NCBI GenBank assembly: GCA_019417795.1
Contig: DXUR01000171.1
Coordinates: forward strand, 1-6,187
DNA from: Clostridiales bacterium
Lineage (GTDB): Bacteria > Bacillota_A > Clostridia > Oscillospirales > Oscillospiraceae
Reading direction: 5' to 3'
DNA: 6,187 bases
Below the pieces are notes generated by a model. The model saw only the letters and a program-made list of their open reading frames with translations, was not told the origin of the DNA and did not search any database. Made by a program: the position numbers and the translations under genes. Shown piece by piece: positions 186 to 6,187 of this stretch (position 1 is its first letter; each line of letters opens with the position of its first letter).

Positions 186-1271
186 TTACGCGATCAGCCC
201 GATCTCCCGCAGGCACTCCCGGAACATGACCTCGCTGCTCTTGTACCCGAAGATTTTCCGTGGATAGTTGTTAATCCATTCCTCCGTGGCCGCGATCTCC
301 GCCGCGCTGACCTTAGAGAAATCTGTGCCTTTCGGATGCCGCCGTCTGATCATGCTGTTGGCGTTCTCGTTGCTCCCCCGTTCCCACGAAGAATACGGAT
401 GGCAGAAATATACCTTGGTGCGCGGGATGGTCTTGTTGACAGCGCTCCGCTCCAGCTCCTCCGCCGCCGAAAATTCCGAGCCATTGTCAAAGGTGATGCT
501 TTTGAAGATCGCTCTGAACCGTCTGGCACCGCATTTCCGCTCCAGTGCATCCAGCGCCTTGACCACGGTTTCCGCCTTTCTGTTCGGTATTCCTATGATG
601 ATGTCTTTCCGCGTCTTGCGCTCATTCAGGGTCAGCAGAGCGCTGGTGGTCTTGCACTTGCCCTTTCCGCTGTACACGGTGTCGCCCTCCCAATGTCCGA
701 ACTCCTCGCGGCTCTCCACCTCCAGCGGGCGCTGTTCAATGCTGTCGCCTGCGGAGGCTCTGGCCTGATCGTCCTTGGTTTTGACCTTTTTATAGCCCTG
801 CTTGTGCTTCCCGTGGCGCGGCAAGTCCACCTGTGTGATTTGGAGAAAGAGGCCCTTTTTGATGTAGCTGTAGATCGTCGTCACAGAAACCGAGGTCTCG
901 AATGTCCGCCCCTCCATCATCGCGTAGCCGAGAACGGCAGCGGGACTGCACTCTTTTTCAACGATTGTCGCCTCGATGTAGTTTGCAAGCTCGTGATCTT
1001 TGCCGATTTTCAAGTCTGGCCCTTTCTCCCGCAAGTGTTCCTGATACCGCGCTTCCGCGATGTCCGGGCTGTACGCCGTCACCATTTCCCACGTCGCCCC
1101 GTCCAGCCGCTCATACTCTCCGCGCTTTAACTCCCGGTAGATGGTGGAAACGTGGACGCGCAGCTTCTCCGCAATCTGCGGCGGCTTCAAGCCCCTGCGC
1201 TGCCACTTCTCAATGCGCAGCCTGTCGTTCTTGGTCAGATGCTTAAATGTTCTCCCTCCGGTCTGCACCAC
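186..1271 (-). CDS. IS30-family transposase
   Basis: This is a DDE-type transposase that would cut and join the ends of its own insertion sequence. About 361 residues is normal for the IS30 family. The N-terminus (residues 9-50) holds a helix-turn-helix of the HTH_38 type (LKPPQIAEKLRVHVSTIYRE). The catalytic core follows, with D197 in HWEGDTV, D262 in TFDNGSEF and E302 in ERGSNENANSMIRR, the last being the family's NEN signature. The start is one of two adjacent GTG codons. The AGGAGG at 1276-1281 lies 4 nt from the first (1271) and 7 nt from the second (1268), so 1268 is the better-spaced start. The stop is TAA at 186-188. The gene appears intact. It lies beyond the phage operon terminator, so it is probably transcribed from its own promoter. 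The family assignment is firm; the exact IS name is not known. Confidence 0.95.
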   Translation of the reverse strand: MVQTGGRTFKHLTKNDRLRIEKWQRRGLKPPQIAEKLRVHVSTIYRELKRGEYERLDGATWEMVTAYSPDIAEARYQEHLREKGPDLKIGKDHELANYIEATIVEKECSPAAVLGYAMMEGRTFETSVSVTTIYSYIKKGLFLQITQVDLPRHGKHKQGYKKVKTKDDQARASAGDSIEQRPLEVESREEFGHWEGDTVYSGKGKCKTTSALLTLNERKTRKDIIIGIPNRKAETVVKALDALERKCGARRFRAIFKSITFDNGSEFSAAEELERSAVNKTIPRTKVYFCHPYSSWERGSNENANSMIRRRHPKGTDFSKVSAAEIAATEEWINNYPRKIFGYKSSEVMFRECLREIGLIA

Positions 1272-1463: not shown

Positions 1464-1856
1464 TCAGTTATTCAGTTCCTTTTCGCCGTCCGTCTTGCCG
1501 GTGGCTTCCTCCACAAAAATGCCACCCAGCGTACCGATTGTGCTGTCCACGGCGATGTCCAGTTCCTTAACCGCCGCCTCGATCATGGCCTTTACCTCCG
1601 CCGTGACCTTAATTCCCTTTGCTTCAAGCATCTGCACCACATAATCGTACTTCGGGATGGGCAGCGTACCGGTCTCGCGCTGCTTCTCCGCCGCCTTGAC
1701 CAGAACGGCGACAATGCCGTACAGGCGCTTGTCTTTCAGCCAAGGGATGCCGGTCTTGATCAGCCACGGAACGGCCACGCCGGTGAAGAACAGGCCGAGG
1801 ATGGCGAAAATTGCCTCAATGACAATGTTGATGATGTCGGGAATGATCTGTGTCAT
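1464..1856 (-). CDS. Phage holin, LLH family
   Basis: This 130-residue protein is a likely holin, an inner-membrane protein that forms lesions and releases the endolysin at the end of infection. A single strongly hydrophobic segment lies at about residues 8-32. It is followed by a soluble, largely helical tail that ends in the pattern typical of the LLH family (KGIKVTAEVKAMIEAAVKEL, residues 80-99). The AAGGAGG at 1865-1871 lies 8 nt from the ATG and overlaps the stop codon of the endolysin, so the two genes are probably translationally coupled. It is the last gene before the terminator. The family call rests on the single N-terminal span, the length, the C-terminal pattern and the position next to the endolysin. 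Confidence 0.85.
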   Translation of the reverse strand: MTQIIPDIINIVIEAIFAILGLFFTGVAVPWLIKTGIPWLKDKRLYGIVAVLVKAAEKQRETGTLPIPKYDYVVQMLEAKGIKVTAEVKAMIEAAVKELDIAVDSTIGTLGGIFVEEATGKTDGEKELNN

Positions 1857-1869
1857 GGTGTGTACCTCC

Positions 1870-3378
1870 TTACACTTTCGTCAGATATTTCTTGTCCACG
1901 TTTCCTGTGATCGCGCCGCTTTTCAGCGTGGAAACTGAAACGCGGTCGCCGCTGATTGCCCGGACATACAGCTTTGCGCTGTACACCCACGAGGAAAACT
2001 TGCGCGTGGTGCCGTAGACTGTGGCAGCCTTGTCCATCGTCACCTGATCGCCCACGGCCAGCGCCGCCGCTTCGGTCTTGATGTCTGCCGCGTCCACCCA
2101 GCCGTACACGGTGCTTCCGCCGCCGCTCACGGCGACAAGGTGATACGGATGCCTGCTCACAAGCGGCTGATACACCTGCGTCACCTTGGCCTTGCCCGGC
2201 TTGCACGGTTTGCCCACGGTGCTGTTTGCGCTGGTGTAGTGCCTCTCGCCGGTGAATGTCACGATGTCGCCCACCTTGCACCCGCCGCCCTTGGTCGGTG
2301 CAGCGTCCGTCGCAGTCCCGCCGCCGGTCGCCTCCTTTCCGCCGTACTTCGGTACGCCGTAGCCGCGAATGTACCGTCCGTTCACAGAAATGGTGCGGCG
2401 CTTCACGCTGTCGGAGTAGTTGCCCTCAATGACGGTGATGCTTGTCCCGCTGACCTTTTCCACGATGCCCACATGATCGGCGCTGCCGGTGCAGTCTCCC
2501 ACGCCGCTGTCCTGCCAGTCGTAGAAAATATAGTCGCCGGGCTTCGGCACATAAGCGTCGTCCTCCTGCCAGCTCCCCAGCTTCTTGAACAGCTCAATGT
2601 GCTTTCCGCAGCCGCACTCCGTCGGGATGATGTCGGTCATTCCCGCCGCGATAGCGACGGCGCTTGCGAACGTGCTGCACCATGCGTCCGTGTACTTCAC
2701 GGCGTAGCCACGGGCCAGCGGCTTGTGACTGTTGTACAGGTCGATGATCTTCCTGTGGCTTCCGTCGCTCTCTTTGCATCCGATGTAGCTCTGGGCGATG
2801 CTCACGATCTTCTGCCGCTGTTCCTGTTCCGTCATAGGCTTTCCTCCGCTTCCTGCGGCGCTCCCTGCCGCATACTTGTCGTAATACTTCTGGCCGAACG
2901 CAGCTCGCCGGGCCTGCGCCGCCTCGCTCTGATCTGCCGGGCGCTCAAATTTCAGCAGCACCGCGTCCGATGCTGCCCGGACGCTTCCAGCCGTTTTCAG
3001 CACGGCCAGCACCGCCTTATAGTCCTCCCGCAACTCTTTCATCAGGAAATCAAGCTGCATTTCCAGATCGCCGATGCTCTTTCGGCAGCACTGGGCATAG
3101 TCCAGCAGCTCTGCCTTGCGGGAGCAGTATGTCCATTGGGCGAGGCCATAGCCCGCCTTATCCGTTGCGAAGAACTGATACTTGCCGCTGTCCACTGCCG
3201 CCGTATAGCTTGCGTCGGTCACGCCAAGCCTTTTTTCGTATAGGTTCTCCACATTGTTCGGGATAAGGCCGCTCTCCGCATACAGGTTTCCCATCAGACC
3301 GGCGGTGCCGAAATCGTTCAGCCCCGCTCCTTTCAGATAATTCCAGATTTTTTCCTCGTTGTTCTTTCCTGCCAGCAT
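1870..3378 (-). CDS. Modular endolysin: tail-lysozyme-like domain, CHAP domain and two C-terminal wall-binding-like modules
   Basis: This 502-residue peptidoglycan hydrolase should lyse the host. Residues 6-165 resemble the phage tail lysozyme domain, with GLMGNLYAESGL (E35 the likely catalytic acid) and YGLAQWTYCSRK near 77-88. A Gly/Ala/Ser-rich linker at about 170-180 leads into a CHAP amidase/endopeptidase domain (about 185-345), with C234 in DAWCSTFAS, H302 in DHVGIVEKV and the E318-G-N triplet. A Gly/Thr-rich linker (347-366) precedes two SH3-like modules. These lie at about 368-433 and 442-502, each beginning with a VGD motif, and probably bind the wall. There is no signal peptide, so export should depend on the holin. 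The start is ATG at 3378, with GAGGAGGG (3386-3393) 7 nt upstream that overlaps the stop of the preceding gene. The CHAP assignment is firm, while the fold of the terminal modules is inferred. Confidence 0.93.
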   Translation of the reverse strand: MLAGKNNEEKIWNYLKGAGLNDFGTAGLMGNLYAESGLIPNNVENLYEKRLGVTDASYTAAVDSGKYQFFATDKAGYGLAQWTYCSRKAELLDYAQCCRKSIGDLEMQLDFLMKELREDYKAVLAVLKTAGSVRAASDAVLLKFERPADQSEAAQARRAAFGQKYYDKYAAGSAAGSGGKPMTEQEQRQKIVSIAQSYIGCKESDGSHRKIIDLYNSHKPLARGYAVKYTDAWCSTFASAVAIAAGMTDIIPTECGCGKHIELFKKLGSWQEDDAYVPKPGDYIFYDWQDSGVGDCTGSADHVGIVEKVSGTSITVIEGNYSDSVKRRTISVNGRYIRGYGVPKYGGKEATGGGTATDAAPTKGGGCKVGDIVTFTGERHYTSANSTVGKPCKPGKAKVTQVYQPLVSRHPYHLVAVSGGGSTVYGWVDAADIKTEAAALAVGDQVTMDKAATVYGTTRKFSSWVYSAKLYVRAISGDRVSVSTLKSGAITGNVDKKYLTKV

Positions 3379-4010: not shown

Positions 4011-4193
4011 TCACTCCGGCCATTCGTCCCCGCCGATGGCCCTGCGGTATGCCTCGTCGGCCTCCGCGATCTCGTCTCGCCCGGTCACGGTGTCGCCCAG
4101 CTCCGCAAGGCGTGTCGCCAGCACCCGGACGGTACGCGCCTGCATTTCCACAAGCGCCTCCAGCTCTGCGATGATCTGCAAATGGCTGCTCAC
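4011..4193 (-). CDS. Small helical phage protein of unknown function
   Basis: This is a 60-residue, acidic, probably all-helical protein (LQIIAELEALVEMQARTVRV region), with a heptad-like pattern that suggests a short coiled coil. I chose the GTG at 4193 because GGAGG (4201-4205) lies 7 nt upstream. The GTG also overlaps the TGA of the preceding gene in a GTGA arrangement, a classic translational-coupling junction. A longer reading from an upstream ATG at 4259 would overlap the previous gene by 70 bases and is less likely. Its position between a tail appendage gene and the membrane proteins suggests a minor structural or assembly role, but no family is recognised. Confidence 0.75.
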   Translation of the reverse strand: MSSHLQIIAELEALVEMQARTVRVLATRLAELGDTVTGRDEIAEADEAYRRAIGGDEWPE

Positions 4194-4834
4194 GCCGTCG
4201 CCTCCGTCCAGCCGTATACCCCCGGTTCCCACACATTGGCATCCGCCGTTGATGTCCAATGCTTTCCATTGTGGCTCACCTTGTCGCCCTTTGCGTAAGC
4301 GTCATGCGCCCCCACCGGCTGGCTCCATTCCGGCCATTCTTCCGCCGGGTCAGATGCCGCCGACCAAAGCGACACCGCCTTGTCCGGTTCCCATCCAGCC
4401 TGTGAGGTGTGCGCCTGTACGCATTTGTACAGCTTGTCCCCCCAGTTGCGTAGCTGCCCCACCGTGTAAGCAACGCCGGTCTGCCACGTTTCAAACAGGC
4501 TCTTATGCTCCCCCGCAGTCACAGCGTCGATGCTTCCGCTCTCCGCCAGCGTCACAAAGGCGATCTCTGTTGCTTTTCTCGTTTCTTCCATCACCTTTAT
4601 CCTTTCCACATACCGGTAATGCTCGCTGATGGTATAGAAGTCGTACCGCGTCCCGTCCTCGTCCGTGTCGCTGTGATAGTGCCGGTCGATGCGGCAGCGG
4701 TCTGTGATGCTGCTGTCGTCGTACTCCCGCACCGTGGTCAGGTATTCACCCTCCCGCAGTGCAGGGCCGCCCACGATTTTCAGGTTTTCCCGTTCTACGC
4801 CGCCGATAACGCTTGTTCCGTAGACGTATTCCAT
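4190..4834 (-). CDS. Phage tail appendage protein with two carbohydrate-binding (CBM5/12-like) modules
   Basis: This 214-residue protein probably sits at the tail tip or baseplate and binds host surface sugars. Residues 1-115 are a charged, Tyr-rich N-terminal part that I do not recognise, probably a particle-attachment and oligomerisation region. Residues 117-160 are a chitin-binding-like module (WQTGVAYTVGQL, then YKCVQAHTSQAGWEP and LW). A second, diverged copy at 168-211 runs from EWSQPVGAHDAYAKGDKV to WEPGVYGWTEA. ATG 4834 is favoured because AGGAG (4843-4847) is 8 nt upstream. A longer reading from 5260 would lie entirely inside the reverse transcriptase. The gene begins 40 bases before the end of the reverse transcriptase, so the two are almost certainly on one transcript. 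The carbohydrate-binding assignment rests on the spaced Trp/Gly/Tyr pattern; the sugar is unknown. Confidence 0.85.
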   Translation of the reverse strand: MEYVYGTSVIGGVERENLKIVGGPALREGEYLTTVREYDDSSITDRCRIDRHYHSDTDEDGTRYDFYTISEHYRYVERIKVMEETRKATEIAFVTLAESGSIDAVTAGEHKSLFETWQTGVAYTVGQLRNWGDKLYKCVQAHTSQAGWEPDKAVSLWSAASDPAEEWPEWSQPVGAHDAYAKGDKVSHNGKHWTSTADANVWEPGVYGWTEATA

Positions 4835-5898
4835 CTTGCCCGCTCCTTTCTTGCGTGTTCTCTGACCACGCATTTCAATTTCCGCTGCAAACCCGCCTCC
4901 ACATAGCTCTGGAAAAAGTGGACATGGTTGCAGTGCTTCATCTGGCCCAGTCTGGATAAAAGCCCCTGCGCCAATGCGGGCTTGATCGCGTGGTGCCGCC
5001 GCATGGCACGGCGGCAGGCGGAAAGAGAATGTTTCAGGCGCACCATGTTTCGTTTCCGCAGCAGGGTATACCCTCGCCCGAAGCGATACCCCAGCGCCGC
5101 CACCGTCCGCTTTGCCGTCGGATAGAGCTGCCACTTGCCGTTCAGCCGCAGGCCGTGTGCCGCCAGCCATTTCTCGATCAGCTCCCGCAGCCGCCGCAGC
5201 TTCCGCTTGTTCCGCCCGAACAAGGTAAAGTTGTCCATGTACCGCAGGTAGTGGTCGCACAGGCCGCTTTCCCGTATCATCCGGTCGAGTGGTTGCAGCA
5301 CCGTGTTAGCAAACCATTGAGAAAAGTAAGCACCGATCAGAATGCCGTGCTTCATCAGCCGCTCGCATACCTCCAGCATTCGCCGGTCTTTCACCAGCCG
5401 CCGGAGCCGCTTCATCACCGTCTCCGCCGTCAAACTGTCGTAGAAATGGTGGATGTCCAGCTCCTCGGCGTACTTCGTCCCTTTTGGGTCTGTCCGCATC
5501 CACTTCTTGATGGCCCGAACGCCGTAATGGATGCCCCGGTTTCGGATGCTCCCGCAGCAGAAATTGTCCATGCCCCGCATCATGATCGGCTCCAACACCT
5601 GAATGACCGCATGATGCACATACTGGTCAGGCCACAGTCTCGGCTCCGATATGTCCCGCCACTTGCCAGCGCTCTTGTCCCAGCGCCGCGCAAGCCTCGG
5701 CTCGTTCGCCTCGTAACCGCCTGTAATGATCTCTCGCAGCTCTTTTACATAGCGGTCAACGTCCGCCTCCACCCGTGCCACCGTCCGGTTTGGCCTGTGG
5801 TGCGGATGGAAGCGGTGTGTCACGTTCACGGCAAAGATCGCCAGCCGCAGGTTTTCTTCCGATACCAGCTTTGGAAATAGGTTGTTTGCTCGTTTCAT
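4795..5898 (-). CDS. Reverse transcriptase, diversity-generating-retroelement (DGR) type
   Basis: This 367-residue RNA-directed DNA polymerase would copy a template-repeat RNA into mutagenised cDNA. Fingers-palm motifs are present in order: KWRDISEPRLWPDQYVHHAV (79-98), YAEELDIHHFYDSL with metal-binding D148, and HGILIGAYFSQWFANTVLQP (184-203). The last carries IGxxxSQ, the motif typical of DGR enzymes. The active-site box is YMDN (220-223), in which the usual second Asp is Asn. A GYRFGR motif follows near 270-275, then a basic C-terminus (thumb or RNA-binding). The length matches DGR enzymes, and there is no endonuclease or maturase extension as in group II introns. ATG 5898 is preferred over ATG 6069 because AGGAGG (5911-5916) precedes it, though the 12-nt spacing is long. 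It sits directly downstream of the AAC-rich repeat and overlaps the carbohydrate-binding gene by 40 bases. Other retron-like or Abi-like classes are possible but fit less well. Confidence 0.87.
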   Translation of the reverse strand: MKRANNLFPKLVSEENLRLAIFAVNVTHRFHPHHRPNRTVARVEADVDRYVKELREIITGGYEANEPRLARRWDKSAGKWRDISEPRLWPDQYVHHAVIQVLEPIMMRGMDNFCCGSIRNRGIHYGVRAIKKWMRTDPKGTKYAEELDIHHFYDSLTAETVMKRLRRLVKDRRMLEVCERLMKHGILIGAYFSQWFANTVLQPLDRMIRESGLCDHYLRYMDNFTLFGRNKRKLRRLRELIEKWLAAHGLRLNGKWQLYPTAKRTVAALGYRFGRGYTLLRKRNMVRLKHSLSACRRAMRRHHAIKPALAQGLLSRLGQMKHCNHVHFFQSYVEAGLQRKLKCVVREHARKERARWNTSTEQALSAA

Positions 5899-5981
5899 CA
5901 GGAATGTTTTCCTCCTTTTAGCCTCACGGTCTTTCCATCGCCCCCGCAGGTTGCGGGAGTGTACTAAACCGTGTCCTGATG
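5896..5981 (-). promoter_or_regulatory. Inverted repeat that could sequester the reverse transcriptase start
   Basis: CATCAGGA at 5974-5981 (minus-strand reading) is perfectly complementary to TCCTGATG at 5896-5903, which contains the ATG of the reverse transcriptase. Pairing would enclose the CCCGCA/TGCGGG hairpin and the AGGAGG site in a loop and bury the start codon. This could link folding of the template RNA to low reverse transcriptase translation. An 8-bp match over this distance can also occur by chance, so the role is inferred. Confidence 0.3.
5943..5957 (-). other. GC-rich hairpin upstream of the reverse transcriptase
   Basis: CCCGCA pairs perfectly with TGCGGG across a 3-base loop, about 45 bases upstream of the reverse transcriptase start. 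No T run follows on the minus strand, so it is not an intrinsic terminator. It may be the 3' structural element of the template RNA, or a translation-control element of the reverse transcriptase mRNA. DGRs often have a hairpin close to the VR, but this one is too far from the repeat to be that element. Confidence 0.5.
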
Positions 5982-6187
5982 GCTTATCTGCACCAAGGGG
6001 TGCCGAGGATGTCCGCGCCCCAGCATGGGTCTTTGCGTTGCCGGGTGTGGAGGTGGGTAGCCAGTCCATAAAAGGACGCGGCAGCCGATGTTCGCGTTCG
6101 AGTTGGACGCGCTGTTGTAGTTCACGTAGAACAGCCCGTGGTTCCCGTTCTGGTTATAGTTACCGCCGAAGTGCAGACACGGGTTGG
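5964..6187 (-). CDS. Possible 3' end of a DGR target-like reading frame (partial)
   Basis: One frame of the repeat stays open from the window edge to TAG at 5964-5966, giving 73 residues. The first 36 or so are the Asn-rich lectin-like repeat. The remainder (WTGYPPPHPATQRPMLG onward) has the composition of non-coding DNA read by chance. If the repeat is a VR, this is the C-terminus of a target protein that would continue upstream. If it is a TR, the frame is only a by-product of TR/VR homology. I favour the latter. Confidence 0.28.
   Translation of the reverse strand, partial: NPCLHFGGNYNQNGNHGLFYVNYNSASNSNANIGCRVLLWTGYPPPHPATQRPMLGRGHPRHPLVQISHQDTV
5990..6003 (-). other. Hairpin in the DGR spacer
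   Basis: GCACC pairs with GGTGC across a four-base loop, giving a compact 5-bp stem. A neighbouring weaker stem (CCCA with TGGG, 3-base loop) lies at 6019-6029. Both fall between the template-like repeat and the reverse transcriptase. They have no U-tract, so they are not terminators and fit better as parts of a structured template RNA. Confidence 0.45.
6070..6187 (-). repeat. DGR template repeat (3' part); a variable repeat is the alternative
   Basis: Read on the minus strand, this encodes a C-type-lectin-like DGR repeat: FGGNYNQNGNHGLFY, then NYNSASNSNANIGCR. Of the codons present, ten are Asn, and all ten are AAC, none AAT. This is the signature of adenine-directed mutagenesis, where AAY codons can change to many residues without giving a stop. 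The GC-rich end (ATCGGCTGCCGC, 6078-6089) could be the initiation-of-mutagenic-homing region. I favour TR over VR because a spacer and then the reverse transcriptase follow directly, and because the reading beyond IGCR turns into Pro/His/Arg-rich, unprotein-like sequence. The repeat runs off the window, so its start is unknown. Confidence 0.62.

Follow-up and report, generated by a model that had tools for sequence, protein, structure and literature searches.

A diversity-generating retroelement half in a Clostridia phage region and its reverse transcriptase lineage with few A-to-C changes

Does the right edge of contig DXUR01000171.1 of a Clostridiales bacterium, a stretch of 6,187 nucleotides (nt) that we call the window, carry a genuine diversity-generating retroelement (DGR), and which bases does a reverse transcriptase (RT) of this kind write at template adenines? 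We propose that the window holds one half of such an element, i.e., a template repeat (TR), a spacer RNA and an RT, in a tailed phage or prophage, and that this RT belongs to a lineage whose variable repeats (VRs) are nearly devoid of A>C changes. We assign this reading a probability of roughly 0.8. As a system the DGR is ordinary; the new part would be the A>C-poor spectrum of the lineage, which is established statistically and for which we infer a cause. Both the assignment of the spacer RNA to Rfam family RT-18 and the restricted A>N spectrum go beyond the first-pass annotation, which was made from the window sequence alone.

Template repeat, spacer RNA and reverse transcriptase

The half element comprises three features:
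6078..6187, minus strand: template repeat (TR), clipped at the window edge (match to the L013 TR)
5912..6002, minus strand: RT-18 RNA (RF03021), structured spacer RNA (81.3 bits, gathering cut-off 41.3, model positions 1-84 of 84)
4795..5898, minus strand: DGR-type RT, 367 aa (PHROG 1423, Pfam RVT_1, tree, fold)

The RT frame is open over its full 367 aa and carries the motifs IGAYFSQ, which conforms to the IGxxxSQ noticed at first pass, and YMDN; AGGAGG can be read at 5916-5911, upstream of the RT ATG. Scanned as the longer frame 4795-6069, the RT matches PHROG 1423 reverse transcriptase (5.9e-80) and Pfam RVT_1 (6e-14). A FastTree phylogeny of 203 RTs, which includes those of BPP-1, hankyphage, LBR48 and Epona and has no labelled retron or group II clade, groups the window RT with DGR RTs, its placement being one among DGRs. 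It pairs with the RT of L013 (support 0.998) within a subclade, K (0.942), of a larger clade (1.0), the non-K members of which are called sister below.

The AAC-rich repeat that had been claimed is present at 6187-6078 on the minus strand. It is indeed cut by the right edge of the window, but its inner end lies at 6078 and not at 6070. L013, a Eubacteriales metagenome-assembled genome (MAG), is the closest relative of the window (RT identity 80%) and contains both repeats, with the VR at 9522-9660 and the TR at 9854-9992. The window repeat is identical to this TR at 102 of 110 nt and to the VR at 89, and it retains A at all 27 TR adenines, including the 12 of 12 sites that are mutated in the L013 VR. 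Its 3' flank fits the flank of the L013 TR and not that of the VR. Because all TR adenines are kept and the 3' flank is of the TR type, the window copy is, judged by sequence, the TR, with the VR outside the window; judged from L013, the edge removes about 29 nt from the 5' end of the TR. The diversified gene is likewise outside the window, as had been expected.

Two checks proposed at first pass, a near-copy of the repeat upstream and differences mainly at A, were carried out on relatives and both bore it out. Among the 15 first-found relatives (12 viral contigs and three genomes), a VR/TR pair is present in 13 of the 13 with enough upstream DNA; L006 and L008 were left out, as their DNA extends just about 540 and 120 nt upstream of the RT. 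A stricter seed rule found 12 of these pairs, and that of L005 was found only by a looser search. In 12 relatives the repeats lie 244-466 nt apart from start to start and 165 of 170 VR/TR differences fall at TR adenines, as do 403 of 416 in the K lineage.

The target gene ends with the VR, its last residues typically being RLQKLP, and its stop codon ends 14-23 nt past the VR in 23 of the 26 K loci listed. Of the 26 K VRs, 14 are followed by a stem of at least 6 bp, compared to 2 of 26 for the TR and 5.2% of shuffles. The DGR target of the relatives is a lectin-type tail protein; its C-type-lectin type was matched by fold search only, and a profile of the C-terminal domain retrieved no PDB sequence at E 0.1. 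The proposal that a phage protein is retargeted by adenine-specific hypermutation agrees with both the target and the A specificity seen in relatives. L304 and L305 are 100% identical from TR to RT and differ in their VRs, while the cassettes of L010 and L011 are 99.2% identical and show 11 VR differences in an 80-nt core, nine of them at A. Near-identical cassettes with differing VRs indicate that the element is active or recently active in these relatives.

From the TR end to the RT ATG (5898) the spacer measures 179 nt, where about 170 had been claimed. RT-18 covers it at full length. Since the order TR-spacer-RT recurs in relatives and the spacer matches a covariance model, a chance order is excluded and the claimed layout holds. 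In one scan RT-18 was matched in 18 of 19 K sources (L044 without match) and in the single sister source included; it was further matched in 20 of 20 sources of a sister scan and in seven of 20 of a mixed set. Other families in the mixed set were RT-4 in seven Epona-type loci, RT-3 in hankyphage p00, RT-17 in L112 and RF03022 'Phage_DGR' in BPP-1; no such Rfam family was matched in L107, L108 and L194. In all 50 loci with an RNA match and a detected TR, 40 of them with RT-18, the RNA is encoded on the same strand as the RT and is flanked by TR and RT; six further RT-18 matches sit in loci without a detected VR/TR pair.

RT-18 is most simply the spacer RNA of the DGR lineage of the window, because RF03022 occupies the same place in BPP-1, and by analogy it may also work like the BPP-1 spacer. 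A plainly named RNA family, whose name says only RT, is hereby placed in a known kind of element, as a DGR TR-RT spacer RNA. The RT motifs reportedly stem from Weinberg et al. 2017. No paper describing RT-18 as a DGR spacer RNA was found by title or abstract, a search outside of which the text of Weinberg et al. 2017 lies; that work is cited in a paper on DGR phages (PMC8143477). As a side observation, RT-3 (L131, 5653-5802), RT-4 (L166, L171, L172, L174, L175, L180, L182) and RT-17 (L112) are likewise located between a DGR TR and RT, and several RT-n families look like DGR spacer RNAs.

Substitutions at template adenines

VR/TR pairs of all groups were accepted by one rule (at least five differences, at least 75% of them at A, 70% identity). 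The unit of counting is the VR and not the locus, as several of the 50 K loci repeat one contig; identical VRs were counted once, and loci whose available DNA contained no VR/TR pair did not contribute. The spectra, with Fisher p values for A>C versus K, are as follows:
K (50 loci, 26 unique VRs): A>G 276, A>T 125, A>C 2 (2/403)
Sister (48 VRs): A>G 460, A>T 222, A>C 36 (36/718); p = 1.6e-5
Epona-type (22 VRs): A>G 141, A>T 66, A>C 60 (60/267); p = 1e-23
Hankyphage-type (9 VRs): A>G 31, A>T 47, A>C 13 (13/91); p = 1e-8
BPP-1-type (49 VRs): A>G 341, A>T 193, A>C 128 (128/662); p = 4e-26
Remaining 'rest' group (15 VRs, with L274, a 578-nt repeat with 5 A>G that is probably no VR, kept in the count): A>G 102, A>T 60, A>C 36

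The deficit persists within AAC triplets, where A>C amounts to 1/310 in K, 24/501 in sister, 30/136 in Epona-type and 102/532 in BPP-1-type VRs. When RTs are clustered at 80% identity, A>C is absent in 16 of 18 K clusters versus 23 of 45 sister clusters (permutation p 5e-5). In the held-out loci, 15 new K VRs contain a single A>C among 251 changes, versus 30/115 in 'rest' (nine VRs), 10/73 in sister (five) and 3/9 in BPP-1-type (one); these VRs were assigned to groups by nearest RT only, although the prediction had also named the profile score. Pooled, the 41 K VR cores hold A>G 455, A>T 196 and A>C 3. With A>C at 2/403, and at 1/251 in the held-out set, the lineage departs from the BPP-1-type A>N pattern (G, T, C) and is hence classed as a variant.

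The first A of AAC changes in K to G 85 times, to T 89 times and never to C; for the second A the counts are G 121, T 14 and C 1. The strong first-A-to-T and the missing C at the second A look separable in K. Passages of PMC12875486 report for the BPP-1 enzyme in E. coli that dG is inserted at 26.8% in NAC contexts and that dA is the commonest error (23.8%) at the first A of AAC, and a slippage model is proposed there.

By analogy with BPP-1, a transcript of TR and RT-18 RNA would be bound by the RT, which would copy the TR with errors at template adenines, and the cDNA would take the place of the VR that terminates a gene for a lectin-type tail protein, located immediately upstream of the window. 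Opposite template A the RT would insert dC (A>G) and dA (A>T) and almost never dG (A>C), by which an AAC codon would mainly reach Tyr, Ser, Asn, Gly and Asp. We consider it probable that the error code of the RT lineage has shrunk to two letters, dC or dA opposite A with dG excluded, such that the dG misinsertion known from BPP-1 in NAC contexts was lost, the first-A-to-T change in AAC was kept, and the lectin is steered to Tyr, Ser, Gly and Asp. If true, a natural RT lineage has shed a single type of error and retained the rest, which would show that targeted hypermutation has an evolvable alphabet; for adenine-specific hypermutation this alphabet would be heritable and RT-encoded. The K lineage also provides a natural contrast for testing the slippage model.

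In the parts of the surveys relevant here, the product base is treated in different ways. DiGReF found C to be the rarest substitute, described substitutions as essentially random and took its data to speak against any strong bias of the enzyme (PMC3521204), a later survey has about half of the replaced A become G (PMC6642488), and Roux et al. report a bias towards A, with no product bases in that part (PMC8144416). PMC3521204 and PMC8144416 define DGRs, in the sections concerned, by change at A and not by the product base, and adenine conservation is analysed in part of a paper on Faecalibacterium prophages (PMC11792537). No paper on a DGR lineage without A>C was found by title or abstract, most subscription papers being outside the reach of this search.

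A separate observation concerns cytosine. In-frame TR CAC codons show C>T in K VRs in 11/43 discovery and 5/34 held-out cases (plus one C>G), and in sister VRs in 2/46, while a third-position C before AC never changed (0/22, 0/18, 0/45). The C>T at K CAC codons reflects a further type of RT error or else selection for Tyr/Phe. In addition, TGC arising from AAC is near-absent in every group, though TAC>TGC reaches 17/69 in K. A coupling within AAC, in which the second A does not become G once the first has become T and no TGC arises, was considered as a K-specific trait and dropped, being present in every group.

Reverse transcriptase, selection or host

Codon and host comparisons suggest the RT lineage as the likeliest cause of the missing A>C. 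AGY and TCY both encode Ser, and K has only AGY (76 AGY, 0 TCY), the groups other than K and sister having 110 AGY and 20 TCY (p = 1e-4), which favours the RT over selection. Within one host family, K DGRs show A>C at 0/44 (three loci) versus 26/157 for DGRs outside the broad clade (p = 0.0016), and this contrast points to the RT and not to the host. RT columns separating K from sister were listed and are correlative only. Y[ML]DN replaces YxDD in 13 of 13 RTs of alignment A2; YMDN was dropped as a cause of the missing A>C, because L107 and L108 have YMDN yet show A>C at 5/14 and 6/15.

Several points weigh against our interpretation. The boundaries of K were set on the tree when its counts were already visible, the prediction being written before the new loci were fetched. 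Among the 15 held-out K VRs, the nearest RT is that of L103 for 11 (81-93% identity), and for one the RT is the same as a known RT; the RTs of L346 and L347 share only about 50% identity with their K neighbour. Three held-out Epona-labelled VRs show A>C at 3/38, below the at least 10% that had been predicted for DGRs from outside the clade. By RT they are closest to L191, and RT-18 is weakly matched in its neighbour L192, so that these three may in fact fall within the RT-18 clade. Sister forms a gradient (36/718, held-out 10/73) with no sharp switch, and the spectrum of the window itself, whose VR is outside the window, is assigned by kinship only. In the Ser test K is not significantly different from sister alone (76:0 versus 99:3, p = 0.26), hankyphage-type (17:0) and 'rest' (10:0) VRs also lack TCY, and VRs in genomes are survivors of selection, the K loci being mostly metagenomic or MAG.

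The survivorship of VRs and the unseparated Ser counts of K and sister count in favour of selection, an explanation that we nevertheless regard as unlikely. Here, the RT would write all bases and tail-protein variants carrying His, Thr, Pro, Leu, Arg or Ala would be lost. Some filter does act, as AAC>TGC (Cys) is observed once in K against 35.4 expected and not at all in BPP-1-type VRs against 20.1. K nevertheless reaches Arg and Leu from CAC (CGC 18, CTC 9) and Ala from ACG/ACC (9) by A>G or A>T, and the AGY/TCY contrast with the groups outside K and sister also speaks for the RT.

An origin of the spectrum in nucleotide pools or repair, set by host or phage instead of by the RT, seems improbable. 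Ratios of dNTPs can affect cDNA fidelity, and pools are discussed in part of PMC12875486; a phage-encoded pool effect is compatible with the data. Against host pools stand the contrast within one host family and the 60/267 A>C among relatives of Faecalibacterium phage FP_Epona.

That the window cassette is a decayed or inactive DGR we hold to be very improbable. The window is cut, the VR lies outside it and an IS30-type transposase is found in the same window; however, the RT frame is open, 27 of 27 TR adenines are kept, RT-18 is full length, and YMDN is common to relatives with fresh VR variation.

The RT profile against PDB retrieves the DGR RT 8ub7 first (4.3e-20) with the group II RT 6ar1 narrowly behind (4e-19), and the modelled fold (pLDDT 75.1) again has 8ub7 first (1.7e-14) with a group II RT narrowly second (1.7e-13). 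From its 328 residues, we take 8ub7 to be the BPP-1 enzyme. The best NCBIfam row is the group II RT/maturase TIGR04416, at 78 bits versus a cut-off of 300, and retron St85 scores 38.2 versus 235. A group II intron, retron or Abi-type RT lying beside an unrelated repeat, for which this NCBIfam row and the close group II structures might be cited, is hardly conceivable and in practice refuted by the A-specific VR/TR pairs of relatives, the tree position and the first rank of the DGR RT in both structure comparisons. The DGR reading of the first-pass annotation, and the RT family assignment it had asked for, are supported by these same lines of evidence.

Related elements and phage context

The Bordetella phage BPP-1 DGR (mtd - avd - TR - brt) shares with the lineage the order TR-spacer RNA-RT, adenine-specific change, a C-type-lectin target with a C-terminal VR, an inverted repeat after the VR and an IGxxxSQ RT. 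It differs in its spacer RNA (RF03022 versus RT-18), in YMDD versus YMDN, in its A>C share and in bAvd, which was not found in the lineage. In 25 of 26 K loci the VR and TR are separated by 107-356 nt and in the remaining one by 603 nt, distances mostly too short for an Avd gene such as that of BPP-1 (387 nt). bAvd (PF22296) was unmatched in nine window frames, seven L013 frames and nine K-lineage records, a search that a diverged Avd would escape; the BPP-1 control was positive and the hankyphage and FP_Epona records were also negative, so the absence of Avd is unproven.

Among other phages, the Lactobacillus phage LBR48 RT is 34.6% identical to the window RT and LBR48 also matches RT-18; no VR/TR pair was found in the LBR48 stretch fetched. 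The RT of Faecalibacterium phage FP_Epona shares 29.4% identity, and the Epona type differs by RT-4 spacer RNA in seven scanned sources, a YMDD consensus and frequent A>C. The hankyphage p00 DGR has the same TR-RNA-RT order and differs in RT clade, in its RNA (RT-3) and in the A>C of its type (13/91). A near-identity search of phage records with the TR-RT stretch returned none, and a distant search returned three.

Followed from its right edge along the minus strand, the window contains in turn the AAC-rich repeat, the 179-nt spacer, the RT, a CBM5/12 gene, small phage open reading frames, a lysozyme/CHAP endolysin, a holin and an IS30-type transposase. This series of genes represents the late region of a tailed phage or of a prophage, by kinship one of Clostridia. 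The context features, outside the DGR, are:
4190..4840, minus strand: phage gene with carbohydrate-binding module 5/12 (Pfam CBM_5_12, 1.1e-15); the coordinates give the scanned stretch, the coding start lying at or slightly below 4840
1870..3378, minus strand: phage lysozyme/CHAP endolysin (Pfam Phage_lysozyme2 3.9e-31, CHAP 8.8e-10)
1464..1856, minus strand: holin (Pfam Phage_holin_6_1, 4.1e-7)
186-1271, minus strand: transposase gene (Pfam and PHROG: helix-turn-helix/rve transposase)

A homologue of the CBM5/12 gene is present at the same place in L013. The transposase, which we presume to be of the IS30 type, lies 3' of the holin in both the window and L013 (14844-15947), as a phage gene or an old shared insertion. 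Between the holin and transposase genes of the window, an inverted repeat of 22 nt with an 8-nt loop is located at 1413-1464.
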